Origin: Pricia antarctica
GTDB lineage: Bacteria; Bacteroidota; Bacteroidia; Flavobacteriales; Flavobacteriaceae
Assembly (NCBI GenBank): GCA_011050085.1
Contig: DRGL01000082.1
Location: 1 to 61,834, forward strand
Direction: 5' to 3'
Length of the DNA stretch: 61,834 nucleotides
The position numbers were made by a program, and so were the translations under genes. The notes beneath the pieces were generated by a model that did not search any database, had not been told where the DNA came from, and saw only the letters and a program-made list of their open reading frames with translations. Shown in pieces: positions 20,590 through 44,800 of the stretch. Within the stretch, counting starts at the first letter, position 1. Each line of letters starts with the position of its first letter.

Positions 20590-23500
20590 ATGAGAAAAAT
20601 TACCCTCCTCTCTTTTTTTTTACTCTTCGCATCCCTAGCTTTTAGTCAAACGCCATGTTCCCCATTAAGTCCCTTGGACTGTTCGGAAGTTGTCGTTTCG
20701 TTACCGGTCGATTTCGGATTTGATGCGGGAATACCAAATACCATTCAGGACAAGAATTCTTTAGGTACTGGGTTTACTGCCGTCTTGGAACACTCTGAAT
20801 CCAGAAGGCCAGGAGACCTTCCTATTTCAGATGAAACATTAAATGGGTATGAACCTTCATTGTTAACGCTCAATGCCGGAAGTTTGGAAATTGTTTCCCA
20901 AGGTGGCATTGCTTACTTAGACCCGCCAATTAGTAGCAATAATAATAATCAAGTTAATACTTTAGGGGTCGGTATTAATGCCTTGGAGGGAGCAATAGTA
21001 ATACAAACCAAGCTGTTAAATATTGTAACAGGCGGAAGTGCAGCACAAGCGGGTATTTGGTTTGGTTTCGATGAAGACAATTTCGTAAAATTGGATGTCA
21101 ATGATTCTAATATCGAATTGCGCGTGGAAATTGATGGAGCTTCGGTTAATGGAGTCCCAGGTCAGATTCAACAGAATTTAGGAGCTTCCGGTCAAGATCT
21201 TCGTCTTGAAATGGTAGTCGACCCCAATACATTGACCGTTGAAGCGTTTTATTCTATCGGTTTGGGTGCGCGTACTTTATTAGGTAACCTCCCTATACCG
21301 AGCTCTTATTTTGAAGGCAGGGATATCAGTGCTTCTACTGAAGAAGATAATGTTTCATTTGCTGGTATATACGCTACGCATAGGAATGGAGCTCAATTTA
21401 CGGCTAGATTCGATGAGTTTAAAGTAGAAAACCTAGCTGTTGCGCCAAATCAGGCACCGGTAGTCGAAAATCAAACGTTTACGGTTTCTGAAGATATTGC
21501 TGTTGGATCTTCGGTAGGTGTTGTAGCCGCTACGGATACAGATTCTTCTGATTTGATATACACCATTACAGCTGGTAATATTGGCTCAGAATTTAGCATC
21601 GATGCTGCAACGGGGGAAATTACCACAAATTTAAATTTAGATTTTAATAGTACCCAACAATATACCTTGGCTGTCGAGGTCAGTGATGGAGAACTTGTCG
21701 ATTCCGCAGATATCGTAATTGATGTTACTGAAATATTGGAGACTTCCTCTTTTGAGGCCCATATAAATTTTCAGGACCGAGTGACGGTACCTCCATCTGG
21801 ATATCTGGCAGACTATGGAAAAGCCTTCGGAACCAATTCTTTAACGCTCGGATCTACTACGTATAATTATGGATGGAAACGGCTTTCAGACGGTACCGCT
21901 GTAGATATCTCAGATGAAGCTGCCAACAACGGGAATGGCGCCGGTCGAAACCGAATTCCAAATATTTATGGCAGTGCTACCGATCAGGAAAAATTGGAAG
22001 GTACCTTAATTCATTTTCAGGGTGATAATGTTATCAATAATACGGGCGGTCAACCCGCTTGGTTGGGTCAGCCTCGTGGTAACGAATCGATTTGGGAACT
22101 CGAAATTCCAAATGGTATTTACGCCGTGACAATAGGACTCGGAGATAAAGACAGCGGAAACCTCGATAGTAGGCATAGCGCTACGATAGAGGGCTTTACT
22201 ATTATACCTGCATACAAACCGAATCCTGGTCAAACGGTTGTTGAAACTATGGTGGTTGAGGTAAGTGATGGCGTTTTGACAATGACCGGCCTCGGCGGTT
22301 TTAACTCCAAAATTACGCATATTGACGTCATTGAAAGCGATGGAACTCCTGTTCAAGGCTCGCTTTCATTTGAACCTTCAACTGTTAGCACAATACTTGT
22401 CGCCGGTACCCAAGAATTATTTTCTAGCAACTTATCCGGCGCTGGTGCAACCACGATTGGTATTGTGATAAACGATAATATTAATGCAGATGACAAAAAT
22501 ATAACGGATGCCAATGATTGGCTGACATTACCTGCTACAGTTAGCGGTGGGGTTGTTGATTTTTCAATTGATGCGTCCGAATTGGTGGAAGGTGATATTC
22601 GAAACAATACTATTATTGCTTCGGAAAAGGGTACGCGACCGGCAAGTTTGACAGCTGATGTCTCCATTACACGAGCTCCCATTAGCAATGTAACAGCTCC
22701 CTATCGATTAAACGTAGCCGGAAGCGACTATATTAAAAACGACGATTCGTATCAGACGGATACCAACGTGTACCTTGAAGAACAATCACCCACCACGGTT
22801 TCAGCAACCTCTTATACACCCTATACTGTCCCAGGCGGCCATCAAGATTTATATTTTCCACGACGTTATGGCACAGAATTCAGTTATAATTTCCCCATAG
22901 ATAATGGTTTGTATACAGTCGCACTACATATGGTGGAGAATTTCCAGACATCCGCAAATGCAAGAATTTTTGATGTTTCATTGGAGGGAACTGTCGTTAT
23001 CGATGATATCGACTTATTCGCAGCTTACGGAAAAGGAGGTTTAGGCCTTCTTAGTTTTGATGTTGAGGTACTTGATGGTGAATTGAACATAGACTTTGTG
23101 GCCTCGGTCAACAATGCAATTGTACAGGCTATTGAAATCCTTCCTGTTATTTCAAATGACGGCACCGATATTTTAACCTTTGCCTTTAACGAACAAACCG
23201 CTCCGGCCATCATCGATAGTGAGACTAATTCAATTACAATTGAGGTAGCAAACGGTACCGTGCTAGATGTTTTGGAGCCTGTAATTACAATCTCTGATAA
23301 TGCTACCGTAAGTCCAGCCTCTGGAGTTGCGGTTGATTTTAGTGCGGGTGCGGTAACCTATACGGTTACTGCAGAAGATGGAACGACCGTGCAAGATTGG
23401 CAGGTGACGGTTACCGAGGCCGTGTTGTCCAATTCTCCTCCAACAATTACTAGTCCGGCAACTGCGGGTATCGTCGAGAATGAAATAGATGCAATAACTG

Positions 23501-26500
23501 TCACAGCAATAGATGATAATGATAGCGAGGGCCCAGGTCTTCAGTTTGCCCTGTCTGGTGTAATAGATGATGCCTTATTTGATATAGATGTTGTAACGGG
23601 TGTGGTAACTTTTAAATCGGCACCAGATTATGAAATTCCAGTCGATACCGGAGCTGATAACGTTTATGACATACAAGTAACCGTAACAGATTCAGGTGCC
23701 CTTACGGCAACACAGGAAATTGCGATTACTGTAACCAATATTTCAGAAGGTGATACGATATTGGTAATTAATGAAATCATGCGTGACCCAGCTATAGTAA
23801 CTGATGGTATGGGGGAATGGTTCGAATTATATAATCCTGGCACAGAGGATGTAAATATAGAAGGATGGCGTATTAGCGACAATGATTCCGACATCCACAT
23901 AATTGAAAACGGTGGTCCCTTACTAGTTCCGGCAGGGGAATATTTAATATTGGCGAATAATTCAAATGTGATTACCAACGGCGGATTAATTGTTGGTTAT
24001 CAATATTCCGGCTTTACTTTGGCCAACTCGGGCGATGAAATTGTATTGGTAGACGCTTCCGATTTTGAAATAGACCGGGTAGAGTATACTGATGCCAGCT
24101 TCCCCAATCAAGCTGGAGCATCGATAGCTTTGAACGAGTTTACCGATGATAATAATGTGGGAACTAATTGGACAGCCGCTACTCAGGCTTACGGTAAAGG
24201 GGATTTAGGTTCTCCTGGCGTTACCAATGATGGAAAGGCCAATGAATCACCATTAATAACAACTACCGATACCATTGAAGTAGAAGAAAATCAAACTGCT
24301 GTAATCGATGTTGATGTTACTGATGACTTAGACTCTGAAGGTTCTGGGATTACTTATGGTTTTGGCGGAGGTGTTGACGATACACTCTTTGCAATCGACT
24401 CATCTACCGGCGTTCTGACCTTTTTAACCGAACCAAATGTTGACACTCCTAATGATGACGGGGCCGATAATATATATAATATTCAGGTTGCCGCCACTGA
24501 TTCAGGAGCACTTATCAATACCCTAGATATCGCCATAACGGTAATTGATGTGCTGCCCCAACAAGATGCGTTTGAAGCCCATGTGAATTTTTCCGACAAG
24601 AATCGTGTTCCTCCGATAGAATATGCTGTTGACTATGGAAAAGAATTTGGATTTTCTTCGATAACTTCGGGCACTACAAGCTATGCATATGGATGGAAAT
24701 TATTAAATACCGGTCTACCTTTCGATGCTTCTGACGATGCCTTAAATAATGATACAGGAGTTGGAAGAAATAGAATTGGTGCTGCTTATGATACAGCTAC
24801 CGAAATAGAAAAATTGCAAGGTACCTTGGTACACTTTCAAGGCGATAATATACCAAGTTGGGGAGATGGCCAACCCAGAAAGAATGAACTTTTCTGGGAG
24901 TTGGAAATTCCCAATGGTATTTACGAAATTACTTTAGGCCTAGGGGATAAGGCTCCGGGGAACATTGATAGCCGGCATACTGCTACCTTGGAAGGCTATA
25001 CCATCATTTCAGCTTTCAACCCTATCGATCAAGAGGTCAGAACGGCATCGATGGTCGTAGAAGTAACCGATGGTGTGTTGACACTGAACGGTTTAGGTGG
25101 ATATAACTCTAAAATCACACACATCGATGTGATTGAGAGCACGGATGCGCCTGTTAGTGGAGTTTTAGTATTTACTCCGACAGTCTCGGACGCAACTTTG
25201 GCCGCGGGAACTACTGGAATTTTCTCCAGCGAGCTTTCTGGTGAAAACGCCTCCGATTTTGGTCTAGCTATTAACGACAATTTGGACGAAAGTGGCAGTA
25301 ACGATTGGTTGACGCTGCCTACTATCACAGATTTGGGCCAGCTCGATTTTGCAGCGGATGCAACTTTATTAGCGGTAGGTGAATCCAAAAACAGTACCGT
25401 AATTGCAACAGCAAAAGGATTTACGCCCGCCATCTTAGTGGCAAATCTCACCGTTTCGGAAGGTACTTTACCGTGTAATCCGCTCAGCAATCTGCCCTGT
25501 GATCAGATTGCAACAGTACTTCCCCTATCCCTCGATTTTGCGGTTGCTAATGGCAACCTTTCCGAATCGGGCATGACTATGGTCTTAGCGCCAAGCGCAA
25601 GGCTGGCTTCCGATGATGCAATTGCCGATGCTAATGTATCCGGATTTGCGCCAAGCCGTATCCAACAGAGTGCCACTGGACTTACTATTACAAGTACCAA
25701 AGGTATTTTTTACAGCCAAATGGCAAATCAAGGTAATCCGAACAGTACGGATACCAATTCTCAAATGAATGCCTTGGGCATGGGTATGATTACGCCATCA
25801 AGTGTTTTCAGCGTTTCATCCACATTAGCAAGTCCTGATTTTTCAGTAAGTGCGGGAAACAATGCCCAACAGGCGGGTATTTGGTTCGGATTGGATGAGG
25901 ACCACTACGTAAAACTAGCAGTTATAAAAACCGGTAATTCTACTGGAAAAGTACAGTTGCAAGTGGAAAATATGGACGAAAATTCGCCCGAAACCGCTTT
26001 CCTTGAATTAGATACTAATAACATCGCTACAGGTGCGGGCGATATTACCCTAAGGATGGAATTTGACCCGATAAGTAACACTGTACAAGGCTTTTATACC
26101 TTGAATGGAGGGGCAGAAGTTTTGGTAGCCAATGGCGTTGCAGATAGTTTCCAAGTACCAGCAAGTTATTTTGCCGGCACATCGTATACTAGCACGAATC
26201 CATCCGAAGTATTGAACTTCGCAGGTATTTTCACTACCCATCGTAGGTCGGATGTCGATCAGCCTATTACAGTGCTCTTCAAGAATTTCAATATTATCGA
26301 AGAAGAACAGCCTTTATCGCTTACTTTTAATGTTAGTGCCCTGAATTTTTCGGGGATCGTAGGAGAAGTCACTTCTCCGCAAACAGTAACCGTTTCCTCA
26401 AGTTCCGGAAATCCCACATATGTACTTTCCGATGATCCCGATTCATTGGAATGGTTGATTTTGCCGAATGCTACTGAATTAGGCGACATTGAATTTGGAA

Positions 26501-29500
26501 TCCAACCTGACCTTCCCGTAGGATCTTACAGCACGACGATATTTGCTAGTGATCAACCTGATTTAGGCTACGCAAATGCCGAAATGAGGGTGAACCTTGA
26601 AATTACCGAGACACCGAACGATTTTGCCGTAAACATTAACTTCTCGGATGCGGCCACCCCCGCACCGGTGGATTATGAGCTGGACTCCGGATTGCCTTTT
26701 GGTGACCGTGGTAACGGTCTTAATTACGGTTGGTTTCAAACTAACGGAACGACCTTATTGAATCTTTCCGAGAATGCCAGAAATAGGAATTACCCTGCGC
26801 TTGACATAAAGCAGCGCACATTAATTCATATGCAATATGGTGATGTAAACGGTAACAGTGGTGTTTTGACCGAAGGAATTTGGGAAATCGATGTACCAAA
26901 CGGAACCTATAATGTCTCTGTTGGAGTAGGTGATCCCGATGTCGATTCCCAGGGTACTTCTCCAATCCACCGAATAAACGCCGAAGGGGTAAACCTTATC
27001 GATAATTTCGCACCAACGGGTGCTGCTGGTAGTGCTACTAGGTTTAGTAACGGTTCACGAAACGTCAGCGTTTCAGATGGTCGTTTAACTATATCGGCGG
27101 ACGCTGCTAATGGCGGATTTAACACCAAAATAAATACCATATCGATTACGGCTGCAAATGCCGGTGTTCAAACGCCCCGAGTAGTAGCGGTGACCCCAGT
27201 AGATGGGGCTAATAATGTTTCCGTTTCGCCGACTATTTCGGCCAATGACCTTTTTCTTCCTAATGTAAATATAGATGGAAATACGGGCGTCGATAATAGC
27301 AGTATTACCAATGCGACCGTTAGACTGTTCAAGCAGGGAAGTACTTCCCAAATTGGAGCTAGTGTTAATGGAACGGGTGGAGGAGATGCCATTAACTTGG
27401 CACCGAACCTTCCTTTGGAATCAAATACCACGTACATTTTTGAAATAGATGGGGTATTGGACCTTGTGGGAGAACCATTTGAATTTTTTACATCTTCATT
27501 CACAACTGGTGATGGTAATACAGGGCCGACAACCGACCTCGATAATGTTTCTTTTAACCGATCAGGTGCGGTTGCCTCGGGTAGCAAATATTCGACTTTG
27601 ACCATCGGGCCGGATGGAAAATTATATGGACTGGTTATTTCTGGGGATATACATAGATGGACCATCAGTGCTGACGGTACCTTAGCGGACTTGGAAACAC
27701 TTTCAGCCTGGAAATCCGTCTATGGATCACGGACCTCGGTAGGGATGGTGTTTGATCCCGCCGCTACTTCAAATAATCTAATAGCTTATGTATCCCATAA
27801 TTCCGGAGGATTAAATGGTGCTCCAGACTGGGATGGAAAAATTTCACGGCTATCGGGTGCCAATCTTCAAACCGAAGAGTTAATTGTAACCGACCTACCT
27901 CGATCTACAAAAGATCATTTGACCAATAGCCTGACCTTCAAGCCGGGCGAGCCAAACGTTCTTTATTTTAATCAGGGCAGTAATAGCGCGGCCGGAAAGC
28001 CTGATAACTCTTGGGGCAATCGTGAGGAAAGTTTACTGACCGCTGCCACATTGCGTCTGGATCTGTCGCTTCTGCCATCAACGCTTCCATTGAATGTACA
28101 TACTACGAGGAACGCGACTGCAATTAACACTGTGGATGTCAATTCACCTACTTTGGACGGTCAATATAATCCGTATTACATAAATGCGCCATTAACTTTA
28201 TTTGCAACGGGCATCCGTAATGCCTACGATTTAGTATGGCATACCAACGGGCAGTTGTACGTGCCCACTAATGGTACGGCAGGTGGTAGCAACGCTCCAG
28301 CTTCCATCGATGGTACGCGCCGTCCTGATGGGTCGTTTTATGATCATTCTAATCCATTGGTATATCCTATAATACCAGCATCTAATGGGAACAACGTGCA
28401 GCGGGATTGGCTATTTAGGATAGATCCCACTACTGATATCGGGTTCTACGGACATCCAAATCCTTTCCGAGGCGAGTTCGTGCTGAACCGTGGTGATGCT
28501 GACGTAGATAATTCAGTATATGACAATATAGCGGCCGACGAGAATTATCGCGGTGCAGCTTTTGATTTCGAATACAATAAGTCGCCTAACGGAGTTATCG
28601 AATATCAAAGTGATGCCGAGAATGGAAACCTAAAGGGAGCACTTTTGGTAGTTCGTTATAGTAATAGTAGCGATATCATTGCCTTAGTCCCTGACGGTCC
28701 AAACGGTGACATATCTACTTTTAAGGAAGGAATCCCCGGATTTGGCGGATTTCAAGATCCCCTTGACCTTATAGAAGATGTAAATACGGGTAACATCTAT
28801 GTTTCCGATTATGCGAGAAGTGAGATAGTTTTGCTCAAGCCAAGTAACGAAGCGGTACCTACGGCTCGTATCGTGCTCAATCTAGAAGAAGTTACCGGTG
28901 ATGCCATTACCAACTTGGATACCTTTACCCAAGAGGTACTATTGTCTAATCTGGGCAATGCAACTTTGTCCGATATTCAAGCGCAAATTATAGGTGTTGA
29001 CGCCAACCAGTTCGCTATAGTCGGAATACCTACTAGCATAAACGCGCAGAATTCCGCTTCATTTACTATTGATTTCACCCCGACCTCTGACGGTCCGAAA
29101 TATGCTGATTTAGTACTTTCTGGTACGGGTGCGGATGCGGTTACGATTCCTCTTCGCGGTCTGGGTAAATTAGGACTTGGTGGTAATAGTGAGCCATCAT
29201 TACAGTGGATATTGGACACCCAACTCGGAGAAGGAGTCGTCGATGTCGGTGATACCAATCCCGCTACTAACTTAGTCAATCTCCCAAACGGTTCTAGCTA
29301 CAATGATATTTTAGGAGACGAGTTGGCCATCCAAAAATTCGAGAGGGCGGTCGATGCTCCCGTGACATTGGAATTGTTGAGCGTCTATGGCCCGACCTCA
29401 AGTAATCCTGTGGTGGCCTTTGGGTGGTATGGTAGTGGCAATTCTTCTACTACCAACGAGCTGTTTACGATTACGAATTCCCCTTTAAGCAATGGTCAGA

Positions 29501-32500: not shown

Positions 32501-35500
32501 AGGAAGCCAGTCATACAGATGTCAGAAAATATCCCGTCACTTTGGGCCCGGACCCTAATTACAGGGAACCTGCGTTTGACTTTGAATTCAACAAATCACC
32601 CAATGGTGTTATTGAATACCGAAGTGATGCCTTTGGCGGTAAACTGCAAGGTCTATTGATGGTGGTTCGTTTTAGCGGACAAGATGACTTGCTTGTTATG
32701 CAGCCAGAAGCAAATGGAAATATCGGAAATGTTAACGGCGACGTACCCGGTCTGGGAGGATTTGATGACCCGCTTGACGTGGTAGAAGATCCTAAAACTG
32801 GAAACATCTACGTTTCCGAATACGACCGTGACGGTAATGGAAGCCCTAAGTTGACCCTTTTGAGGGCAGCGGTACCGGCGACTACCGGTCCAAAAATTGC
32901 CGCAGCTCCTGTAGAGCTTATTTTCGAAACCACGGTTAACGACGATGGTAATAAAACAGATATAAAAACGGTAGAAGTGACCAATGACGGTAAAGAATTG
33001 CTTAACATTTCGAGTGCAGTCATTACTGGCTCGTTCGCTAATCAATTCGATGGAGTGCAGCCTGCGGGTGCCATTAGCATAAATCCAGGTGAGAGCCAGA
33101 TTTACACGGTCACTTATGCGCCAACACTAGACAATTCAGATTTGGGGTATCAACAAGCTAGTCTGACTATCACTAGCGATGCTATCGACAATCCGAACTT
33201 CTCGGTAGGTTTGCACGCTTTGAAAAAACGTGGTTTCGAGGGTGGAAACGAACCTGCCTTGCAAGATGTTGTCGATGCCTTGGGTATTGGTATCGATGTA
33301 GGATGGACTACGCTAGCCAATGGCACAAATGTAAATCCGCTGGGAGACGAGTCGGAGGTCGAATTGTGGATCAAAGCCAGTGAGGCACCAATTAATGTGA
33401 CTCCTGTTGGACGCTATTCCCCGGGAGAAACGCTTCCCTTTGGATGGTATACGAACGATAATGGTATCATTGAGACCAATGAAGTTGCAATTTTGTCAGG
33501 TGGCATAGAGAATGCTCAGACGCTGTTCCCTCCAATTCTTTCCGGAGAGACTTCTTTCAATCCACAAGGTGCCGTATTCGGATTCTACGTGGAATCGAAT
33601 ACCTTCAATAGATTTAGCTATACGCAAGATGAGGTAAATGCTGTTCAAGAAGCAGGTGTGACGCATAGAACGAGAATATATCCAATGGCGGATAGAGAGG
33701 GCAATCCAGTCGAAAACAGTTATTTGATTGCTTTCGAGGATGCATCCAACGGAGATTATCAAGATTATATGTTTATCATTGATAACGTAATTCCTTATGA
33801 AAGCGGACTCTTGGCCTTAGATTTTAATAAAGAAGATATAGGCTTTATCGCTTCAATTAACCAAGAAGAAATTCCTGTACAACAGATAACGCTTTCCGGA
33901 AACGGTGGTATTACTTCGGACGGAATTGACTTGGTAGCTTCCGAAGAATGGGTGGTTATTCCTGATAATTTCGAACTCGGTGTTGCATTTGATGTTAATG
34001 TAAATACATCAGGTCTGTCAATTGGTTCCTATCAGGCGACTGTAATTGCATCGGCTCCAAATTACGAAGAAGCTTTGGTGAATGTTTCACTTGACATAAC
34101 CAATGAACTCGTCTATACCTACCAATTTAATTTCCAAACGCCCGATGACATAGAAACATCGCCCGCTGGATTTATTGATGATATCGGTTCGGGTTATGGC
34201 GGACAAAGCACTATCTTGGGTGACCTTTCCTACGGCTGGGTATTACCTGGAACCTTAACGCCCGCTGAGGCAGGTGTTAACGGAAGAAATCGTGCTAGCG
34301 GTACTCAAGACGGCGTTTTACTTAAGACTTTTACTATCCTCGGACATGCTACAACAGCAACCTATCCCTTGCGGGATTGGGTAGTCAATGTGCCGAACGG
34401 CACCTACTCCGTGAACATTAGTGTGGGCGAGCGGGACTTTGCTGACAGTAACCATGTTCTGGATGTTAACGGAACAACCGTCGTCAATTTTGATCAGGAA
34501 AACAATAATCCCGAAAATCTCGTTTATTTCAACGACACTAAATTTGTTGACGTTACGGATGGCCTTTTACGTTTGTCCTTGAATCCGCAAGGTTTCAATG
34601 CCAAGGTGAATTATATTCGACTGGCACCAATAGACAATTCCCTGCTTCCACCCACTGTTCTCGCCAATTTTGAGGGGAACGAAAGCGCTCCGGATACGTA
34701 TAGGGGTACGGTCGAAATTACATTGGAGGCAACCGATAATAGCCAAAGCGGCGGTATTGCACGACTGGAATATGTATTGGACGGAAATCCCGTTGTTAGC
34801 TATTCCCAGCCAATTTCTATAAGTGGCGAAGGGGTACACAGTTTGTTCGTAACGGCTGAGGACAATAATGGAAACATTTCCGAAAAAACCTTCGACTTTA
34901 GCATTGAAACTCCTACTGGTGCAATGTTGGCCATCGAGAACATGACCAAGGTGCCCGGTACGGATAGAAGTTTTCCTTCTGACGACTACTATACCTTCCA
35001 CCGACTAGGAAATCCTGGACAGGCACTCGTTCATGATTCGAACGTCATGCGTTTGAACAATACGGGAACAGGTGACTTGATTGTTACTGATGCTATCGTA
35101 TCCGATACCAATGATTACACCTATGAGGTATTGAACAGCAACGGCATAACGGTAACCTTACCGGTTACCATTGCACCTGGAAGTTTTGCAGATCTCGATA
35201 TTACATTCATTGGAACCACAGGCAACGGCAACAATGGTATTTTCGTAGAGGATATTGAAATTGTAACCAATGCGGATAACGCACTGGAGAATACAGCGGT
35301 ATTGCATGGTGCCTATTCCCCACAACCGGAGGGAGGCGATGAAATCAATGCCCAGGAGGTTTTTGATGCCTTTGGTTTTCAATCGAGCATGTTAAGTATC
35401 GTAAATGATGAGGGCACGATTACGCCTCCGAACAATATTCGGTTCAGACCAAGTTCAAACTTTCCACTCGCAGAAAACATCGACGCTGGCTATGAAGGGG

Positions 35501-38500
35501 ATTTGATATTGTCATCGAACTTTGTTCAGGCCGATCCTTCCAAACCGGTAATCGGTATCCAACTTTCTGCCTTGCATGGTGGTCCCGGATCTAATGGAGC
35601 CAGGTTTGTACAGGTCAATGGAACTGGTACGGTCGGTGGTATGAATTTCTCCCATGATGGCGCATATTATCAGACCCTATTGCCAAAAACAGGGGCAAAT
35701 ATAAATTTTGATACTGCCAATACGATCAACGGACCTTTCCGAATAGCGATTTCCAGTTATCTGAGCAGCGGTGGTAATAATATCAGTGGTGACCGACCTG
35801 ATCTTTTGGGCTTACGTATTTACAAGGTTATTGATAATAAGGGCAATATCGTTCCGAACGAATATATCGGTTTACAAGATTTTGTTCAAGATGGATGTGG
35901 TGCTGGCTCGGCAAACTGCGACTGGAACGACAACACGTTCTACTTTATTAATATACGACCCGAAGGCGTTCCTACGGCTCAGCCCACTGAAGCCTATTTG
36001 GCCAATGTCGGTGAAGCATTAAATTTCGATATCGCCCAATATTTCGATAATGGCTATCCTGGAAATACTTTGACGATAAATGCGTCCGTAGCGAATGGAA
36101 GCTTACCTAGTTGGTTGACATACAATCCTGTTGACGGAACCCTGTCAGGTACCCCACCGATGGATGTCCCGGGAAGTATCGAAGTAGCTTTTGATGCGTT
36201 GGATGGCAACGGCCTAACCGCTTCCACCAGCTTGACCATAAATATCAATGAGCCACCGGTGGCTGTCGACGATGAGAAGACGACAACTCAAAATGTGGCC
36301 ATTCTTATCGAAGATTTGTTGGCCAATGATTCAGAACCAAATGGACAGGAGATTAACATCTTGACGGTAGATTCACCCCTAAGTGGGGAGGCGGTATTGC
36401 AAGCTGATGGTGTTTCCATTCTATATACACCTGATACCGATTATGTAGGTTCCGATAGTTTTAGCTATACCATTGAAGACGAATCCGGATTAACGGCTTC
36501 GGCTAATGTGACTATTACGATCACGGCTGAAAATCAAGCACCGGAAGCTTTAATAGTAACCAGTACGAACGAAGGTCCCGCCGCACTGTTTGTAGAATTT
36601 ACGGGTAGTGGTTCAACGGATGAGAACCTTGCTACAGTACGATACGCATGGAACTTTGGTGATGGACTGGGTACTTCTTCAGATCCGGATACTAGCTATA
36701 CGTTTAGCTCAGCAGGTATGTATACGGTCAGTCTTACTGTTACCGATGATGCGGGATTGTCTGATGTCGCTACAACTTCGATTACAGTTTCCGCTCCACC
36801 GAACACGCCGCCTTCGGCAGTAGCCATTGCGACACAGAACACATCGAATCCGTTACAATTCAGTTTTGACGGTAGCGGTTCAAATGATTCGGAAGGAGCA
36901 GTAAGCTATTCGTGGAATTTTGGTGATGGAAATTCCTCCACCCAATTAACGCCTAGCCATACCTATGGCCTTGCTGGTTCCTACGACGTGAGTTTTACGG
37001 TAACCGATGAAGGTGGTTTGACCGATGTTGTAACGCTACAAGTGGTTGCAGAGGAGCCAATTTCAAACGGCTTTGCATTAAGAATCAATGCAGGTGGTCC
37101 ACAAGTTGTTCAAAACGGTGAAACGTTTTCGGCCGACAATAATTTCGCTGGGGGTAAAATCTATGTCAATAATAGTGCTACCGTACCTGATCTATATAAA
37201 ACAGAACGTAGTGCGTCACCTCCGACCTTTGCCTACAATATACCGTTGGCAAATGGGAATTACCGAATCGTTCTCCATTTCGCCGAGATATATCACGGCG
37301 CAACTGGCGGCGGTACAGGCGGAACTAGAAGGCGTGTATTCGATGTGACACTAGAAGGCAGAATTATTATGAACGATTATGATATCAATGCCGATGTAGG
37401 GCCACAGACCCCGGTAACCAAAACTTTTGAAGTTGCGATTTCCGATGGTCAGATGAACCTTGTTTTTGATGCAGCAGGAGGAGATGGTGTCGATCAGCCT
37501 AAAGTATCCGCCATCGAAGTAATCGGTATAGAAAATCCTGTTGTCGATTGCGAGCTTCCTTTGGCTTGGACGAACGCTGATATCGGAGCTGTGGCCGCAA
37601 ATGGCGATACCTGTTTCGATAATGGTCGATTCGAGGTCAGTGCCTCTGGTGCCGATATCTGGGGCAGCGCCGATGAATTCCATTATGTATATCAGCAGCT
37701 TGAAGGAGATGGTGAAATTATCGCACAAGTTATGAGCCTCGACCAAACCAATGTTTGGGCCAAGGCTGGCGTTATGATGCGTAACGACCTGGATGCTAAT
37801 TCAGCTTCCGCATTGATGATTATCGCTCCTAATCCTACTAATATTGGTGGTCCTGCCTTTAGTTTTCAGAATAGAACGACAAAAGGGTCAACGATGGGTA
37901 CCGGTAACTTTACGGCTCCGGCGTTATTACCAGGTGGATTCCCTCATTATGTTAGGTTGGTACGTTCTGGTTCTACATTTACGGGATACATCTCAGAAAC
38001 AAATGGGAACTGGACACAGGTTGGTGTTCAAAACATTGCAATGGGGCAGAATATTTTTGTAGGCTTGGCCACGACCTCCCACAGTGATGGTAATTTGACC
38101 AATGCGGTATATGAAAATGTAAATGTGATTACGAACCAACCTCAAAACGAGGGGCCAACGGCTTCAATAGTGGCAAATCCGATTAGCGGTACTGCACCCC
38201 TGGAGGTAAGCTTCGACAGCTCCGGTTCTACCGATGATAAGAATATTGTTTCTTATCTGTGGGATTTCAAGGATGGTGCTATATCGACCGAGGAAAATCC
38301 AACCCACACGTTTGCTGCCGGTATTTACAATGTGAGCTTGACCGTATTCGATGCTGAGAACGAGGCAGATGAAGCGACTGTTAGTATAACGGTTCAGGTA
38401 CCGAATTCGGCACCGACTGCTGTAGCAAGTGCTACACCGAACAGTGATAATCCGCTGCAATTCAATTTCGACGGTAGTGGCTCAGGGGATACGCAAGGCA

Positions 38501-40989
38501 CCATTGATTATCTATGGGATTTTGGGGATGGCAATTCGTCTGACGAGGTATCACCGACCCATATGTATGCGAATGCAGGTACGTTCGACGTTACCCTTAC
38601 CGTTACCGATGAGGATAACTTGACCGATGCGACTACCTTACAAGTAGTTGCTCAAGCTCCTGTTACCCCGCAATTCACGCTACGCATAAATGCGGGCGGT
38701 CCACAAGTCGTAGAAAATGGGAAGACCTTTTCAGCCGACAGAAATTTTGTAGGAGGTAAATCCTACACCAATGTGAACGCTATTCTGCCTCCACTTTATC
38801 AAACGGAACGAAGTGCGCTACCACCAAACTTCGGATATGAAATTCCGGTTAATAATGGCAGTTACAGGGTTACGTTACATTTTGCGGAACTTTTCTGGGG
38901 CGCAAACGGAGGATCTCCAGGAGGTGTCGGCAGACGTATATTCGATGTATTTATGGAAGGTAATACTGTACTCAACGATTACGATATCATATCAGATGTT
39001 GGTAGCCAGACTGTGGTAACCAAGACTTTTGATGTAATCGTTCAAGATGGTACCTTGAGTCTAGCACTAGATGCTGCAGGTAGCGATGGTCGTAATGAAC
39101 CAAAATTATCCGCTATCGAAATCGTGAGTGTTGGTGCCACAAATGCCGCACCTACAGCAGTGGCCAATGCCAGTGCATCGAGGGGAGTGGCACCGTTTGA
39201 AGTCCAATTCAACGCTGATGGCTCAAACGATGATGATGATATCGTTTCATATCTATGGGACTTTAAGGATGGTATTACATCGAATCTTGAAAACCCACAG
39301 CATACTTTCAATACACCGGGTATCTATAATGTTAGCTTGATTGTATCAGATGCAGAAGGTGAGACCGACGAGGCGTTCATAACCATAACGGTTGACGAGC
39401 CTGTAGTCAATGATTTCGCCCTCCGTATTAATGCCGGTGGACCTAGTTTGACACATAATGGTAAAGTGTTCGCGGCAGATCGAAATTTTGTAGGCGGAAA
39501 ATCCTACACCAATAACGCGGCAGCGTTACCCACGCTTTATAAAACCGAACGCAGTGCTTTGCCGCCTAACTTTGGCTATGCAATACCTCTGGAGAACGGT
39601 AATTATGAAGTTACCCTCCATTTTGCGGAACTTTTCTGGGGAGCCCAAGGTGGAAGCCCAGGTGGAATAGGTCGACGTATTTTCGATGTGAAAATGGAAG
39701 GTACTACCATACTGGACGATTTTGATATGATTGCTCAAGCTGGCTCAGAAACGGTTATTACCAGAACCTTCGAGGTAACGATTAGTGACGGAGAACTGAA
39801 TTTGGCTCTTGATGCCGAAGGTTCCGATGGTCGAAATGAGCCGAAATTGTCAGCCATTGAAATTATAGGTTCGGGCGTAAGCGATAAAATGGATCCAATT
39901 GCCAATGCGGGAATCGATGTCGAAACTGAATTACCGAACAGTGGGTTCACGCTTCCAGGAAGCGGTAGTGATCCCGACGGAGGAGCTGTTTCATATCAGT
40001 GGATACAAGTTGATGGACCAGATACGGCCTTACTATCCAATGAGAATACCTCAGAACTAACGGCAGAAATACTTGTTGAAGGTTCGTATGTATTCCGATT
40101 GACCGTAACGGATGATGAGGGTATCACTGCCTTTGATGAGGTAAGAGTCACCGCAGTGCAAGGAAACAATAGTCAAATTTGGCTTGAAGCCGAATGCGCA
40201 ATTGTAGGTTCTGGCTGGAACATAGAGAACGATGGAGGGCAATCAGGCGGACAGTATCTGACCCCACCTACATCATTCCAATCGTCAGCCTCAAATGAAC
40301 CTAGTTCTATGGTAAGCTTTGATTTTTCAGTCACGGCCGGTACGTATAAAATATTCGGACTCGTCAAAACACCGAGCGGTACTCAAGATAGTTTCTGGGT
40401 ACGCGTCAACGGTGGACCGTGGGTTCGTTGGAACAGTATTCCACCAAGCAATAATTTTGTTTGGCACAGGATACATCTCAACGAGCAATTGAGTCAACCT
40501 CGTAATTTCGAATTTGTTGAAGGTGTCAATAGAATCGATATAGGTCACCGAGAAGGTGGGGTTGCGCTTGACAAGTTGTATGTTACCCAGACTGATGATA
40601 TTCCGACCGATTTGGGAGGTTTGTCTACCAACTGTGGCAGTACAGCGAAATCTTTTGATTCAGAAACCTTTGTGAATACGTCAAGTAGTACGACTCAAAA
40701 GATGCCAGAAGGATATGATGCACCAGTTGCCAATGAGGTAAGTATGTATCCGAATGCAGCTGATGTAAGTACACAGATTACAATGTCGAATCCTGAGGCC
40801 GAAATAAACAAACTCTACGTTTATGATGTTTCCGGACGGTTGATACGAAGTTATGAAGGATTACAACTTAAAACCAGTGCCGATGCCTATGTACTGCAAG
40901 TCTCAAATCTCAATAATGGGATATATCTCTTGAGAATGGTGGCTAGTGATGGCAGTGTATTTGACGAAAAGTTAGTAGTTCGCCATTGA
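20590..40989 (+). CDS. Giant T9SS-secreted multidomain surface protein, 6,799 residues
   Basis: A single open frame for a secreted protein. Residues 1-20 form a signal peptide ending ASLAFSQ. Modules seen by eye, residues approximate: lectin-like 21-284, 1627-1904, 3066-3322; cadherin 288-384, 951-1054, 1219-1324; malectin-like carbohydrate-binding 388-585, 1327-1517, 2013-2189, 3329-3499, 4511-4679; malectin 704-854, 5494-5646, 6031-6181, 6276-6427; lamin-tail 1056-1204; sorbosone-dehydrogenase-like propellers 2319-2754 and 3631-4092; DUF4114-like 2862-3061, 4216-4404, 4917-5126; PKD 5316-5489, 5854-6024, 6184-6269, 6434-6524; CBM6-like 6527-6684; T9SS type A signal 6716-6799 (VSMYPN, GIYLLRMV, ending EKLVVRH). 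Likely a cell-surface adhesin or glycan-binding protein; no confident catalytic site is seen. A strong terminator follows. Confidence 0.93.
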   Translation: MRKITLLSFFLLFASLAFSQTPCSPLSPLDCSEVVVSLPVDFGFDAGIPNTIQDKNSLGTGFTAVLEHSESRRPGDLPISDETLNGYEPSLLTLNAGSLEIVSQGGIAYLDPPISSNNNNQVNTLGVGINALEGAIVIQTKLLNIVTGGSAAQAGIWFGFDEDNFVKLDVNDSNIELRVEIDGASVNGVPGQIQQNLGASGQDLRLEMVVDPNTLTVEAFYSIGLGARTLLGNLPIPSSYFEGRDISASTEEDNVSFAGIYATHRNGAQFTARFDEFKVENLAVAPNQAPVVENQTFTVSEDIAVGSSVGVVAATDTDSSDLIYTITAGNIGSEFSIDAATGEITTNLNLDFNSTQQYTLAVEVSDGELVDSADIVIDVTEILETSSFEAHINFQDRVTVPPSGYLADYGKAFGTNSLTLGSTTYNYGWKRLSDGTAVDISDEAANNGNGAGRNRIPNIYGSATDQEKLEGTLIHFQGDNVINNTGGQPAWLGQPRGNESIWELEIPNGIYAVTIGLGDKDSGNLDSRHSATIEGFTIIPAYKPNPGQTVVETMVVEVSDGVLTMTGLGGFNSKITHIDVIESDGTPVQGSLSFEPSTVSTILVAGTQELFSSNLSGAGATTIGIVINDNINADDKNITDANDWLTLPATVSGGVVDFSIDASELVEGDIRNNTIIASEKGTRPASLTADVSITRAPISNVTAPYRLNVAGSDYIKNDDSYQTDTNVYLEEQSPTTVSATSYTPYTVPGGHQDLYFPRRYGTEFSYNFPIDNGLYTVALHMVENFQTSANARIFDVSLEGTVVIDDIDLFAAYGKGGLGLLSFDVEVLDGELNIDFVASVNNAIVQAIEILPVISNDGTDILTFAFNEQTAPAIIDSETNSITIEVANGTVLDVLEPVITISDNATVSPASGVAVDFSAGAVTYTVTAEDGTTVQDWQVTVTEAVLSNSPPTITSPATAGIVENEIDAITVTAIDDNDSEGPGLQFALSGVIDDALFDIDVVTGVVTFKSAPDYEIPVDTGADNVYDIQVTVTDSGALTATQEIAITVTNISEGDTILVINEIMRDPAIVTDGMGEWFELYNPGTEDVNIEGWRISDNDSDIHIIENGGPLLVPAGEYLILANNSNVITNGGLIVGYQYSGFTLANSGDEIVLVDASDFEIDRVEYTDASFPNQAGASIALNEFTDDNNVGTNWTAATQAYGKGDLGSPGVTNDGKANESPLITTTDTIEVEENQTAVIDVDVTDDLDSEGSGITYGFGGGVDDTLFAIDSSTGVLTFLTEPNVDTPNDDGADNIYNIQVAATDSGALINTLDIAITVIDVLPQQDAFEAHVNFSDKNRVPPIEYAVDYGKEFGFSSITSGTTSYAYGWKLLNTGLPFDASDDALNNDTGVGRNRIGAAYDTATEIEKLQGTLVHFQGDNIPSWGDGQPRKNELFWELEIPNGIYEITLGLGDKAPGNIDSRHTATLEGYTIISAFNPIDQEVRTASMVVEVTDGVLTLNGLGGYNSKITHIDVIESTDAPVSGVLVFTPTVSDATLAAGTTGIFSSELSGENASDFGLAINDNLDESGSNDWLTLPTITDLGQLDFAADATLLAVGESKNSTVIATAKGFTPAILVANLTVSEGTLPCNPLSNLPCDQIATVLPLSLDFAVANGNLSESGMTMVLAPSARLASDDAIADANVSGFAPSRIQQSATGLTITSTKGIFYSQMANQGNPNSTDTNSQMNALGMGMITPSSVFSVSSTLASPDFSVSAGNNAQQAGIWFGLDEDHYVKLAVIKTGNSTGKVQLQVENMDENSPETAFLELDTNNIATGAGDITLRMEFDPISNTVQGFYTLNGGAEVLVANGVADSFQVPASYFAGTSYTSTNPSEVLNFAGIFTTHRRSDVDQPITVLFKNFNIIEEEQPLSLTFNVSALNFSGIVGEVTSPQTVTVSSSSGNPTYVLSDDPDSLEWLILPNATELGDIEFGIQPDLPVGSYSTTIFASDQPDLGYANAEMRVNLEITETPNDFAVNINFSDAATPAPVDYELDSGLPFGDRGNGLNYGWFQTNGTTLLNLSENARNRNYPALDIKQRTLIHMQYGDVNGNSGVLTEGIWEIDVPNGTYNVSVGVGDPDVDSQGTSPIHRINAEGVNLIDNFAPTGAAGSATRFSNGSRNVSVSDGRLTISADAANGGFNTKINTISITAANAGVQTPRVVAVTPVDGANNVSVSPTISANDLFLPNVNIDGNTGVDNSSITNATVRLFKQGSTSQIGASVNGTGGGDAINLAPNLPLESNTTYIFEIDGVLDLVGEPFEFFTSSFTTGDGNTGPTTDLDNVSFNRSGAVASGSKYSTLTIGPDGKLYGLVISGDIHRWTISADGTLADLETLSAWKSVYGSRTSVGMVFDPAATSNNLIAYVSHNSGGLNGAPDWDGKISRLSGANLQTEELIVTDLPRSTKDHLTNSLTFKPGEPNVLYFNQGSNSAAGKPDNSWGNREESLLTAATLRLDLSLLPSTLPLNVHTTRNATAINTVDVNSPTLDGQYNPYYINAPLTLFATGIRNAYDLVWHTNGQLYVPTNGTAGGSNAPASIDGTRRPDGSFYDHSNPLVYPIIPASNGNNVQRDWLFRIDPTTDIGFYGHPNPFRGEFVLNRGDADVDNSVYDNIAADENYRGAAFDFEYNKSPNGVIEYQSDAENGNLKGALLVVRYSNSSDIIALVPDGPNGDISTFKEGIPGFGGFQDPLDLIEDVNTGNIYVSDYARSEIVLLKPSNEAVPTARIVLNLEEVTGDAITNLDTFTQEVLLSNLGNATLSDIQAQIIGVDANQFAIVGIPTSINAQNSASFTIDFTPTSDGPKYADLVLSGTGADAVTIPLRGLGKLGLGGNSEPSLQWILDTQLGEGVVDVGDTNPATNLVNLPNGSSYNDILGDELAIQKFERAVDAPVTLELLSVYGPTSSNPVVAFGWYGSGNSSTTNELFTITNSPLSNGQTLNAPITGATEFDPGTESFGFYSRWPAFNNRQLFSEDILNTFSDAIPHHVRVYELPGEENAYIIATEEHISGFDYQDIVVIARNIRPFDDTPLVACSPISTLDCNELEVALPFALNFDGTEGGLSDTGFTMVDNPSARITADGPITNPNVPGYEPSKLSISNGNLILNANNGIAFVTNGSGTNQSTEVNSQINTLGVGINAGNFRNFDISTSIINPYTDASNNSEQAGVWFGLNEDNFVKLVATAASQIELRSESGGLSGDVDQVIATVPNLNNSTVQLRLNVDVENNLLTAYYVLNSGAEAVLGSLPLPLSYVSGNLAYDNLSFAGIFATKRRELTADVNYTFEDFAITSDNIVAFEPVKINFSLPEDVPPSGYLTDSGLGYGDRGNTYSYGWLNTSGTSTLDLSERARNRAVAGVDILQNTLVHMQFQNVDATGQEGIWEISVPNGIYNVLVGVGDANVDGQANTEPFHTINVEGVNAINRYSPSGVAGSSTRFTSGMATATVTDGRLTIDAFGGFNTKITSLEIYQGGVIDQPFFADVNPADNAVNVAINDFQITVNVVVPSGYELDKASLDGNVNLYEIVNGNEVLVPSNSNDTGGGDAITLTPLSSVKAFTNYRFRLTNGVEANRFGDLNDRIPFTPFESDFTTGDEATLTPLDLTGVEFTKIAGGTALGEGTLNQRFSSLVVGPDERLYASTIGDFASDGKIYRWDMADDGTLENLEILSPVLQGAPHPVSGARNNNDRLIIGFAFDPAATADNLIAYITHSFASESAGPEWDGVLSRLSGPDLSVVEDLIIHLPRSSKDHLTNSITFDPQGTMYINQGSNSAGGQPDGSWALRPERLLTAAVLKLELNKLPTNLPFSAFTTDDIGVINAASSTSFTMSDGTYNPYATNAPLTLFSTGVRNAYDLVWHSNGWLYVPTNGTAGGSNTPATADYSLARRIDGLNTVPSAPATFSNETQKDWLFKTKGGSYHGHPNPYRGEFILNHGGAPYSGVPGQQEASHTDVRKYPVTLGPDPNYREPAFDFEFNKSPNGVIEYRSDAFGGKLQGLLMVVRFSGQDDLLVMQPEANGNIGNVNGDVPGLGGFDDPLDVVEDPKTGNIYVSEYDRDGNGSPKLTLLRAAVPATTGPKIAAAPVELIFETTVNDDGNKTDIKTVEVTNDGKELLNISSAVITGSFANQFDGVQPAGAISINPGESQIYTVTYAPTLDNSDLGYQQASLTITSDAIDNPNFSVGLHALKKRGFEGGNEPALQDVVDALGIGIDVGWTTLANGTNVNPLGDESEVELWIKASEAPINVTPVGRYSPGETLPFGWYTNDNGIIETNEVAILSGGIENAQTLFPPILSGETSFNPQGAVFGFYVESNTFNRFSYTQDEVNAVQEAGVTHRTRIYPMADREGNPVENSYLIAFEDASNGDYQDYMFIIDNVIPYESGLLALDFNKEDIGFIASINQEEIPVQQITLSGNGGITSDGIDLVASEEWVVIPDNFELGVAFDVNVNTSGLSIGSYQATVIASAPNYEEALVNVSLDITNELVYTYQFNFQTPDDIETSPAGFIDDIGSGYGGQSTILGDLSYGWVLPGTLTPAEAGVNGRNRASGTQDGVLLKTFTILGHATTATYPLRDWVVNVPNGTYSVNISVGERDFADSNHVLDVNGTTVVNFDQENNNPENLVYFNDTKFVDVTDGLLRLSLNPQGFNAKVNYIRLAPIDNSLLPPTVLANFEGNESAPDTYRGTVEITLEATDNSQSGGIARLEYVLDGNPVVSYSQPISISGEGVHSLFVTAEDNNGNISEKTFDFSIETPTGAMLAIENMTKVPGTDRSFPSDDYYTFHRLGNPGQALVHDSNVMRLNNTGTGDLIVTDAIVSDTNDYTYEVLNSNGITVTLPVTIAPGSFADLDITFIGTTGNGNNGIFVEDIEIVTNADNALENTAVLHGAYSPQPEGGDEINAQEVFDAFGFQSSMLSIVNDEGTITPPNNIRFRPSSNFPLAENIDAGYEGDLILSSNFVQADPSKPVIGIQLSALHGGPGSNGARFVQVNGTGTVGGMNFSHDGAYYQTLLPKTGANINFDTANTINGPFRIAISSYLSSGGNNISGDRPDLLGLRIYKVIDNKGNIVPNEYIGLQDFVQDGCGAGSANCDWNDNTFYFINIRPEGVPTAQPTEAYLANVGEALNFDIAQYFDNGYPGNTLTINASVANGSLPSWLTYNPVDGTLSGTPPMDVPGSIEVAFDALDGNGLTASTSLTININEPPVAVDDEKTTTQNVAILIEDLLANDSEPNGQEINILTVDSPLSGEAVLQADGVSILYTPDTDYVGSDSFSYTIEDESGLTASANVTITITAENQAPEALIVTSTNEGPAALFVEFTGSGSTDENLATVRYAWNFGDGLGTSSDPDTSYTFSSAGMYTVSLTVTDDAGLSDVATTSITVSAPPNTPPSAVAIATQNTSNPLQFSFDGSGSNDSEGAVSYSWNFGDGNSSTQLTPSHTYGLAGSYDVSFTVTDEGGLTDVVTLQVVAEEPISNGFALRINAGGPQVVQNGETFSADNNFAGGKIYVNNSATVPDLYKTERSASPPTFAYNIPLANGNYRIVLHFAEIYHGATGGGTGGTRRRVFDVTLEGRIIMNDYDINADVGPQTPVTKTFEVAISDGQMNLVFDAAGGDGVDQPKVSAIEVIGIENPVVDCELPLAWTNADIGAVAANGDTCFDNGRFEVSASGADIWGSADEFHYVYQQLEGDGEIIAQVMSLDQTNVWAKAGVMMRNDLDANSASALMIIAPNPTNIGGPAFSFQNRTTKGSTMGTGNFTAPALLPGGFPHYVRLVRSGSTFTGYISETNGNWTQVGVQNIAMGQNIFVGLATTSHSDGNLTNAVYENVNVITNQPQNEGPTASIVANPISGTAPLEVSFDSSGSTDDKNIVSYLWDFKDGAISTEENPTHTFAAGIYNVSLTVFDAENEADEATVSITVQVPNSAPTAVASATPNSDNPLQFNFDGSGSGDTQGTIDYLWDFGDGNSSDEVSPTHMYANAGTFDVTLTVTDEDNLTDATTLQVVAQAPVTPQFTLRINAGGPQVVENGKTFSADRNFVGGKSYTNVNAILPPLYQTERSALPPNFGYEIPVNNGSYRVTLHFAELFWGANGGSPGGVGRRIFDVFMEGNTVLNDYDIISDVGSQTVVTKTFDVIVQDGTLSLALDAAGSDGRNEPKLSAIEIVSVGATNAAPTAVANASASRGVAPFEVQFNADGSNDDDDIVSYLWDFKDGITSNLENPQHTFNTPGIYNVSLIVSDAEGETDEAFITITVDEPVVNDFALRINAGGPSLTHNGKVFAADRNFVGGKSYTNNAAALPTLYKTERSALPPNFGYAIPLENGNYEVTLHFAELFWGAQGGSPGGIGRRIFDVKMEGTTILDDFDMIAQAGSETVITRTFEVTISDGELNLALDAEGSDGRNEPKLSAIEIIGSGVSDKMDPIANAGIDVETELPNSGFTLPGSGSDPDGGAVSYQWIQVDGPDTALLSNENTSELTAEILVEGSYVFRLTVTDDEGITAFDEVRVTAVQGNNSQIWLEAECAIVGSGWNIENDGGQSGGQYLTPPTSFQSSASNEPSSMVSFDFSVTAGTYKIFGLVKTPSGTQDSFWVRVNGGPWVRWNSIPPSNNFVWHRIHLNEQLSQPRNFEFVEGVNRIDIGHREGGVALDKLYVTQTDDIPTDLGGLSTNCGSTAKSFDSETFVNTSSSTTQKMPEGYDAPVANEVSMYPNAADVSTQITMSNPEAEINKLYVYDVSGRLIRSYEGLQLKTSADAYVLQVSNLNNGIYLLRMVASDGSVFDEKLVVRH
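25470..33800 (+). repeat. Tandem 4-kb internal duplication in the giant gene
   Basis: Two consecutive blocks share the order lectin-like, malectin-like, Ig-like (Big_5 type), beta-propeller, ASH-like and DUF4114-like: block one about 25470-29770, block two about 29785-33800. Matching landmarks include TGIRNAYDLVWHTNG / TGVRNAYDLVWHSNG and FDFEYNKSPNGVIEY / FDFEFNKSPNGVIEY. Block one has one extra Ig-like domain after its lectin module, so one copy gained or lost it. Confidence 0.85.
37070..39870 (+). repeat. Three closely related malectin repeats with PKD spacers
   Basis: Three malectin copies at about 37070-37525, 38680-39130 and 39415-39870 share segments such as LRINAGGP, YKTERSA and RRIFDV. 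Copies two and three are nearly identical over long stretches (LHFAELFWGA, SPGG, then GSDGRNEPKLSAIEI). PKD domains separate them. Such similarity suggests recent copying or gene conversion. Confidence 0.85.
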
Positions 40990-41300
40990 ATTGATTTGTA
41001 GTATCATTCGAGAATTTTACGAATAAAAAGGGAGCAGTTACAACTGCTCCCTTTTTTTATTTCCACATCTTTTCTACTAATCTATTTCGTTATGTTCTTC
41101 ATCGATACTTTAATCTTACCACTGAAATCCATTAGTAACTTATTGGCAGTGAGTGGATAGATATTTTTTATTAAATAATTAACACATTTAAAGCAATATT
41201 TCCAAACCCTTGAGTAATAATCTCGTAAGTAATAATAAGAACACCAGTTAAATTACCATCAAAACGCACTATTAACCATTAATAAAAACTAAGAACAATT
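40990..41300 (+). other. Intergenic region between giant gene and lipoprotein
   Basis: Holds the terminator at 41026-41058 and then about 240 AT-rich bases that must contain the lipoprotein promoter. No TAnnTTTG match was found on the plus strand, and no other gene or RNA is recognised. Confidence 0.5.
41026..41058 (+). terminator. Rho-independent terminator after the giant gene
   Basis: A 10-bp stem, gggagcagtt pairing with aactgctccc around a tiny loop, is followed by seven T residues. It lies 37 bases past the giant gene stop and has A residues on the 5' side, so it could also serve the opposite strand. Confidence 0.9.
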
Positions 41301-43750: not shown

Positions 43751-44794
43751 ATGAGTTTAAAGGATAACATGTACCGCATCAAAGTTTTTATTAAAGACAG
43801 GGATAAAAAACCGCCCTTTGTTATGGTTAGTGAATTTTTAAACCTCTGGGTATCGAAAGGAAACATTCCAATGCATTATTTTGGAAGATTTTTGTACCGA
43901 AAGCGCTACACTAATCCGAGCGATTTTATGGATATGAAGCAATATCGAGCTATCATATTTTCCAAAAGAAATAACGAAGAGGAATATGTGCATCTTTTGA
44001 GCAACAAATTCCTGTTTTCGCTACTCTGTGAAAAACACAGTTTGCCAACTCCTGCAGTGTTAAGCTACAATATGAGAGGCAATTTTTTTTATGCAAACAG
44101 CCTTAGTCGTATTACAAATTTAGATGAGTTAATTCGATTTTTTGAAAATGTTTTCAATACCACTTCAAACGAACGCCTCTTTATCAAATCCTTTTGTGGT
44201 TACGGAGGCACGGAAGTATTTCTATTACATCGTGAGAAATTAAAAGAGCAATTGAAAACCTTTGGTGATACACTCTTGACCAGCGCTTTTATACATCAAG
44301 AAAGTATAGAGCAACATGCGGAGATTAATAAAATTTACCCAAGCAGTGTCAATACCATACGTTTCGAAACCTATATCGATAATAGTGGTAAGACCAATAT
44401 TTTGGGAACCTTTATCCGCTTTGGTGCCAATGGAAGAGTAGTTGACAATGTTAGTTCCGGTGGGTTTTATGTTCCAGTACATCCCGAGACCGGAACTTTA
44501 CTGGCCACAGGCATACAATCAATGATATTCGGAGGGAATGAATTTGAAAAACACCCTGATACGAATTTTGAATTTGAGGGTTTTAAAATTCCCTTTTTTG
44601 ATGAAGCCAAAGCTCTTTGTATAAAGTTAACCAAGTATGTTCCGAACAGGCTCGCCGGATGGGATATTGCCATAACACCGACCGGTCCGATTGTAATAGA
44701 AGGAAATCACACTCCGGGTATTACAGTGGGTGAAATAGGCTACGGTGGCTACGTGAAACACCCGTTATTCACTGAAATGATTTCTAAATCGTAA
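43751..44794 (+). CDS. Sugar-transfer-associated ATP-grasp protein
   Basis: A 347-residue ATP-grasp enzyme of the sugar-transfer-associated type. Visible marks are the N-terminal KFLFSLLCEKHSLPTPAVL segment, the ATP-binding RLFIKSFCGYGGTEVF segment with its glycine-rich loop, SSVNTIRFETYID, and the C-terminal GWDIAITPTGPIVIEGNHTPG, where the E and N residues would bind Mg. These enzymes form amide or ester bonds by way of acyl phosphates and were predicted by comparative genomics to decorate surface glycans with amino acids. It has no signal peptide, so it acts in the cytoplasm. It is six bases from the CapK-like gene and thus in one operon. Confidence 0.85.
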   Translation: MSLKDNMYRIKVFIKDRDKKPPFVMVSEFLNLWVSKGNIPMHYFGRFLYRKRYTNPSDFMDMKQYRAIIFSKRNNEEEYVHLLSNKFLFSLLCEKHSLPTPAVLSYNMRGNFFYANSLSRITNLDELIRFFENVFNTTSNERLFIKSFCGYGGTEVFLLHREKLKEQLKTFGDTLLTSAFIHQESIEQHAEINKIYPSSVNTIRFETYIDNSGKTNILGTFIRFGANGRVVDNVSSGGFYVPVHPETGTLLATGIQSMIFGGNEFEKHPDTNFEFEGFKIPFFDEAKALCIKLTKYVPNRLAGWDIAITPTGPIVIEGNHTPGITVGEIGYGGYVKHPLFTEMISKS

Positions 44795-44800
44795 TACTCC

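Follow-up and report, generated by a model that had tools for sequence, protein, structure and literature searches.

Giant surface proteins of bacteria are often labelled adhesins and left so. Among T9SS cargos, SprB is comparable in size to the protein described here and is distinguished by SprB repeats and a type B tail. Surface proteins as long as 3,000–8,000 residues are reported elsewhere (PMC12863079), and size alone does not make our protein exceptional. Its propellers bring in a different set of described proteins. The fungal AA12 enzyme (Coprinopsis cinerea, 6jt5; Trichoderma, 6h7t) has one propeller, its own cytochrome domain and a cellulose-binding module; PMC4133262 describes the AA12 prototype as secreted and CBM-carrying, and CcSDH as using PQQ. 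The sGDH/YliI-type aldose sugar dehydrogenases (PF07995) share the fold and the His/Arg-Asn positions of our propellers, though YliI, with 371 residues, is unlike the giant. HHIP has the same propeller fold and is described as glycosaminoglycan-binding (PMC8660895); as a human hedgehog antagonist with EGF repeats it otherwise differs. A search of titles and abstract openings, with subscription journals largely outside its scope, returned no published description of the family presented here. The giant is of a known general kind, the modular T9SS cargo, and we have not seen its duplicated quinoprotein-type core described.

The window, that is, the whole 61,834-nucleotide contig of Pricia antarctica that was analysed, contains one uninterrupted ORF at 20590..40989 (+), with 20,400 bases from an ATG start to a single stop and 6,799 encoded residues. 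This frame, as the original prediction had stated, was recovered by a six-frame scan, which found no other open stretch longer than 800 residues. As random sequence of the window's base composition would have a stop in roughly one codon of 16, a 6,799-codon frame is not a product of chance. The gene has no exact internal DNA repeats of at least 25 bases, so repeat collapse is unlikely, and the frame is also intact in a same-genus relative (G002), on a 4.27-Mb contig of a three-contig assembly whose sequencing method is not stated. The GC content of the gene is 44.7%, versus 38.8% for the rest of the window. A terminator-like hairpin with a T run (41025..41056, +) begins 36 bases 3' of the stop codon (one found, against a mean of 0.2 in shuffles), and 570 gene-free bases lie upstream; given its own hairpin and this free stretch, the gene probably stands alone. 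A Bacteroidetes-type promoter pattern was not found in those 570 bases. We rejected a shared operon with the neighboring polysaccharide genes, as the giant has its own hairpin and the Zobellia copy sits elsewhere, and also a phage origin, as viral contigs gave a single pattern match and none coding for a relative.

About 43 modules were counted, close to the roughly 45 originally proposed: 30 were found by profiles built from the giant's own modules and about 13 more by Pfam/NCBIfam matches or by eye. The lamin-tail, malectin, PKD and Ig-like modules of the original prediction were recovered at Pfam cut-offs (the last as cadherin/Ig-type), as was Big_5. The protein starts with a signal-peptide-like stretch (about residues 1–19; 20590..20646, +; by eye), and the same-genus ortholog starts similarly. 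A variable N-terminal part follows (20647..25470, +; profiles and Pfam), with ConA-like (by eye), cadherin, malectin-like, malectin and lamin-tail modules, the last at residues 1058–1167. The conserved core (about residues 1628–5132) contains two copies of a six-module unit, in the order ConA-like, malectin-like, Big_5, propeller, ASH-like and DUF4114-like. Unit 1 (residues 1628–3060; 25471..29769, +) was delimited by Pfam, self-comparison and our own profiles, and unit 2 (residues 3065–4405; 29782..33804, +), with the same module order, by the latter two; they are 27–52% identical over the self-matching pieces. Some of these names are loose: 'ConA-like' is a label given by eye, with only weak DUF1349 matches, 'DUF4114-like' rests on one match below cut-off (E 0.025), 'ASH-like' on matches below cut-off, and the core malectin-like modules were named by their likeness to the malectin modules of the same protein and a weak galactose-binding-type match. 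The core ends in a tail (residues 4508–5132; 34111..35985, +; NCBIfam and own profiles) with a third malectin-like module, an OmpL47-type and ASH-like stretch (the third ASH-like, by eye) and a third DUF4114-like module. Downstream are a PKD/malectin repeat region (residues 5316–6526; 36535..40167, +; Pfam, self-comparison and own profiles), which includes a DUF1349-like stretch near residues 5653–5850, and a CBM-like stretch (40177..40659, +), a weak GH115_C-like profile match below cut-off.

The type A T9SS sorting domain that had been predicted for the C terminus is present at 40744..40980 (+), where PF18962 (42.4 bits, cut-off 27) and TIGR04183 (38.2 bits, cut-off 23) both match; absence of such a profile hit would have spoken against the original reading. 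The genome encodes SprA (2,834 bits over the whole model), 13 type A tails, 18 type B tails and 13 PorP/SprF-like places. By sequence the giant is thus a modular T9SS type A cargo, as proposed, and its surface location is a prediction. The earlier description of it as one of the larger T9SS cargos is true, though the same genome has another T9SS-tailed frame of 6,271 residues and the ortholog frame in G002 reaches 7,106. PorU, the sortase that usually anchors such cargos, went undetected in the genome, which makes attachment by the textbook route doubtful: NF033707 gave only a partial 19-bit match (cut-off 420), PF01364 gave no match here and none in the controls either, and 36 of 60 genomes, but not this one, were matched by a PorU protein query. 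PorU was likewise undetected in three same-genus relatives (one 79% complete) and in Zobellia uliginosa. Among ten further genomes NF033707 matched fully in two and partially, below cut-off, in two more, and two loci (L095 and L096) served as positive examples. PorU is present in a genome that also carries the giant (G271), so PorU loss is not tied to the giant, and type A cargos are present in our genome although PorU is undetected. Two spreading Flavobacteriaceae strains (PMC7440613) and Sphingobacteriia (PMC7323717) are described as lacking PorU.

The original prediction also included two propellers, which were borne out by profile and structure comparison. Propeller 1 (residues 2310–2760; 27517..28869, +) was modelled by AlphaFold2 from 43 sequences with a pLDDT of 88.3 and a pTM of 0.89; a model of a 1,062-residue unit (pLDDT 45.9) was not used. 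Its best 13 matches among solved structures were fungal AA12 proteins and, from archaea or bacteria, PQQ-type or putative glucose dehydrogenases (sGDH among them), at query-length TM-scores of 0.52–0.56, rmsd of 5.5–9.3 and identities of 14–16%. The AA12 structures matched best, at 14–15% identity, and differ from the giant, which has two propellers and about 40 other modules. HHIP followed at ranks 14–25, with unrelated propellers below. When solved structures were searched with the propeller sequence, only chance- or repeat-type matches were obtained. A propeller profile aligned with a profile of four GSDH proteins (YliI of E. coli plus three encoded in the same genome) at 95.3% probability over 270 columns (hhalign). 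The Pfam GSDH match to the giant itself, at 21.4 bits, is below the cut-off of 25, and the protein is not a member of PF07995. In propeller 1, Asp2442-His2443 and Arg2543-Asn2544 align with Asn-His147 and Arg214-Asn215 of YliI (His139 and Arg239-Asn240 in the modelled stretch). Presumably these His and Arg-Asn positions act in catalysis and PQQ binding; they are invariant in all 43 aligned propellers. Propeller 2 (residues 3623–4100; 31456..32889, +), delimited by sequence comparison with propeller 1, has the same motif (Asp3776-His3777 and Arg3876-Asn3877) and likely the same fold, given an identity of about 52%. The motif would fit an enzyme and is no proof of one. According to PMC4133262, every six-bladed quinoprotein aligned there, HHIP included by the wording, retains the proposed catalytic His, and the presence of this His is for this reason weak evidence for catalysis.

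Closer relatives of the propellers were found in shorter proteins. Two single-propeller proteins of about 580 residues, from Zobellia (L073:7719-9461) and another genome (G214, L075:7693-9426), are 39–43% identical to the giant's propellers and exceed the GSDH cut-off, with a cytochrome c domain that passes its own cut-off. They adjoin glycosyltransferase-type genes inside polysaccharide clusters (gene names by eye). Unlike the giant they have EN in place of DH, carry cytochrome c, and show no T9SS tail and no CBMs; the giant in turn has no CxxCH haem motif. With regard to catalysis, the GSDH and cytochrome c matches of these kin pull one way, and their EN for DH and the missing CxxCH of the giant the other. 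Leaving aside the giant's propellers, 12 places in the genome exceed the GSDH cut-off (on C43, C69, C81 and other contigs; L111–L122), and the one at L112 is fused to a CxxCH tail. It also encodes a 2,602-residue T9SS cargo (L074:3805-11613, minus strand) with a propeller, malectin-type and PKD modules and a type A tail; this propeller is 31% identical to the giant's over part of its length, and the duplicated core is absent.

To survey orthologs, a 1,170-residue query from the core was searched against 60 genomes, our own included, and matched four: our own, G002 (80% identity, 7,106-residue frame), G004 (taken as Zobellia uliginosa DSM 2061; 77%, 6,202 residues) and G003 (44% over part, at a contig end). 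The same-genus genome G001 had no match to the core in this search. Across 249 genomes of the family (own included), 22 had some propeller match, mostly weak, and eight had two propellers in one frame, of 5,518–7,106 residues. The species collection provided 30 loci, including Zobellia, Arenibacter, Maribacter, Cyclobacterium, Algoriphagus, Algibacter, Croceitalea and metagenome bins. An unbroken frame is not universal, as the matches at three loci (L041, L049 and L059) are spread over more than one frame; the 7,424-residue frame of Arenibacter echinorum runs into unread bases and was not counted as intact, and only its earlier modules were used in the layout.

Module layouts were compared for 12 proteins of Flavobacteriaceae, Cyclobacteriaceae and Persicobacteraceae, i.e., six long proteins and the six that belong to the giant's family among the longest frames of 13 further loci; the rest of the 30 loci, many cut by contig or locus ends, are outside this sample. 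The six-module order is doubled in 11 of the 12; behind the second copy, these have one more malectin-like and one more DUF4114-like module, the third of each kind, with PKD and mostly malectin repeats beyond. The exception, Maribacter orientalis (L051), has one propeller and retains the second ASH-like/DUF4114-like pair. The mix of lamin-tail, malectin, lectin-like and sorbosone-dehydrogenase-like domains that had been called unusual is present, and this description understates the case: the giant is a conserved core with shuffled ends, and the core, fixed and duplicated, is common to several orders. In a tree of 27 rows, our genome and G002 group with Zobellia. The Leeuwenhoekiella row (L057), whose branch is very long, probably represents the other propeller copy. 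Algoriphagus is placed within the Flavobacteriaceae at a weak fork (82/94), and we therefore claim no transfer.

Conservation differs along the protein. Over the first 2,000 residues, only 1,352 could be aligned with the Zobellia protein, at 45% identity, versus 72–74% for the core. The nonsynonymous difference from G002 ranges from 0.07–0.08 (propellers) to 0.23 (N-terminal part), with the core halves at 0.11–0.15, the tail at 0.15 and the PKD/malectin part at 0.19. The propellers are thus the most constrained of the regions compared with G002, and the N-terminal part is the least conserved large part in both comparisons. Synonymous sites versus G002 are saturated everywhere (0.76–0.85; 0.83–0.85 in the propellers), so no dN/dS ratio is given.

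A plasmid search matched nine records, four of which were opened. JZB09-Plasmid3 of Persicobacter encodes a member of the giant's family in a 5,637-residue frame. Deinococcus and Rhizobium plasmid proteins have a malectin-like module, Big_5 and the propeller, together with NPCBM, or with CBM35/CBM6 and cadherin modules, and a Yoonia plasmid protein has Big_5, the propeller and CBM6/35 modules. The Yoonia propeller reaches the GSDH cut-off (27.4 versus 25). All four opened relatives, from three phyla, have the DH motif, and all except Rhizobium the Arg-Asn pattern. The malectin-like/Big_5/propeller combination, which may be a portable cassette, is shared by Bacteroidota, Deinococcus and Rhizobium (Big_5/propeller in Yoonia) and is coupled to different CBMs and apparently different export routes, namely T9SS and, beside the Rhizobium pair, a type I transporter, whose permease gene is close by. 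On either side of the Yoonia gene (L125:1-13218) lies a copy of the same Tn3 transposase gene, an arrangement like that of a mobile unit.

We consider it fairly probable (about 0.6) that the giant is a secreted, surface- or matrix-associated polysaccharide-binding scaffold that presents two AA12/sGDH-type propellers. It would be exported by Sec and then by T9SS via the type A tail; its malectin-like, ConA-like and CBM-like modules would hold it to glycans, its own or foreign, with PKD, cadherin-like and Ig-like modules as spacers, and the core would present the two six-bladed propellers, each preceded by malectin-like and Big_5 modules. In favour of this reading are the type A tail and SprA, the malectin, PKD, cadherin and LTD matches over cut-off, the core order kept in 11 of 12 proteins, the constraint on the propellers with their structural matches and invariant residues, the cytochrome-fused kin in polysaccharide clusters, and the Deinococcus, Yoonia and Rhizobium proteins, which repeat the combination of propeller and carbohydrate-binding modules. 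Against it are the EN of those kin, the missing CxxCH of the giant, the low weight of the His, the TM-scores to enzymes of only 0.52–0.56 and the module names given on matches below cut-off. That the propellers are active PQQ-dependent sugar dehydrogenases falls just short of an even chance; if non-enzymatic, they would bind glycan or protein in the manner of HHIP. The fuller proposal of a glycan scaffold and redox enzyme in one, which keeps two quinoprotein propellers in portable cassettes on extracellular polysaccharide, is tentative and well under even odds. The most constrained part of the giant is an enzyme-type fold, present twice and in a cassette that recurs in other phyla, and function is for this reason testable on a piece of about 750 residues instead of 6,799. 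Working propellers would make this a system for sugar oxidation that is held on polysaccharide and carried by a secreted giant, and inactive ones a widespread glycan- or protein-binding propeller.

Three other explanations were weighed against the scaffold that presents two propellers. The giant may be a surface-displayed sugar oxidoreductase, both propellers binding PQQ and oxidising sugars where the glycan-binding modules place them; AA12 and sGDH as top structural matches, the DH and RN motif in 43 of 43 propellers and its alignment with His147 and Arg214-Asn215 of YliI, the secreted, CBM-carrying AA12 precedent and the cytochrome c-fused kin that pass the GSDH cut-off all point this way. 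However, these cytochrome-fused kin are without the His, the giant is without CxxCH, so that a different electron acceptor would be required, the His by itself is not diagnostic by the account in PMC4133262, and the GSDH score of the giant is below cut-off, which leaves this explanation somewhat below even odds. A pure adhesin, in which the propellers are non-catalytic binding discs like HHIP, whose propeller fold binds heparin and a protein ligand, would agree with HHIP as the next structural match, with the reported part of the HHIP propeller in heparin binding (PMC8660895) and with a remainder made of binding or spacer modules, but would need another reason for the strong propeller constraint and for the DH motif in all four plasmid relatives; to this, too, we give rather less than an even chance. 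Kinship in role with SprB, as a gliding-motility adhesin, is suggested by size, the T9SS tail and a genome with SprA and an SprB-like gene. Yet the tail is type A and not type B, Pfam reports no SprB repeats in the giant, its contig has none of the 13 PorP/SprF places, and the same-genus G001 gave no match to its core. The 6,271-residue frame, a separate gene, is SprB-like by its SprB repeats, type B tail and adjoining PorP/SprF gene. The identity of the giant with SprB was rejected on its tail type, the missing repeats and this separate gene, and a role of the SprB kind is very improbable. RemA is reported as a type A gliding adhesin (PMC10202324).

The genomic site of the giant was compared among relatives. 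In the genus of the window it follows a run of CTP_transf_3, HAD, iron-type alcohol dehydrogenase and acyltransferase genes, the first of which we take to be kdsB-like. The run is kept with the giant in G002, with no acyltransferase match in the part seen, and as a whole in Maribacter orientalis, and in G003 the alcohol dehydrogenase gene is followed by the beginning of a related giant, cut off by the contig end (L109). At the equivalent place in G001 (L106/L108) are two other large modular genes: one encodes 2,668 residues and ends in a type A tail, the other encodes 3,189 residues, with kelch and malectin modules and no T9SS tail reported. In Zobellia (L107) the run is present and the giant absent in the 12 kb fetched, the giant being on another contig. 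The site behind the alcohol dehydrogenase and acyltransferase genes (20019-41301 in the window) seems to accept different giants, and is possibly an exchange site for giant surface proteins. Directly downstream, 41301-43319 encodes a protein of 672 residues that begins like a lipoprotein, has two halves resembling each other and gives an NHL-type match. A surface polysaccharide-type cluster follows at 43751-51200, with a sugar-transfer ATP-grasp protein, two PylC-like ATP-grasp proteins and a bacterial sugar transferase, and towards the window end are an IS66-type transposase (52756-54210) and an rve-type integrase protein (56316-56924).
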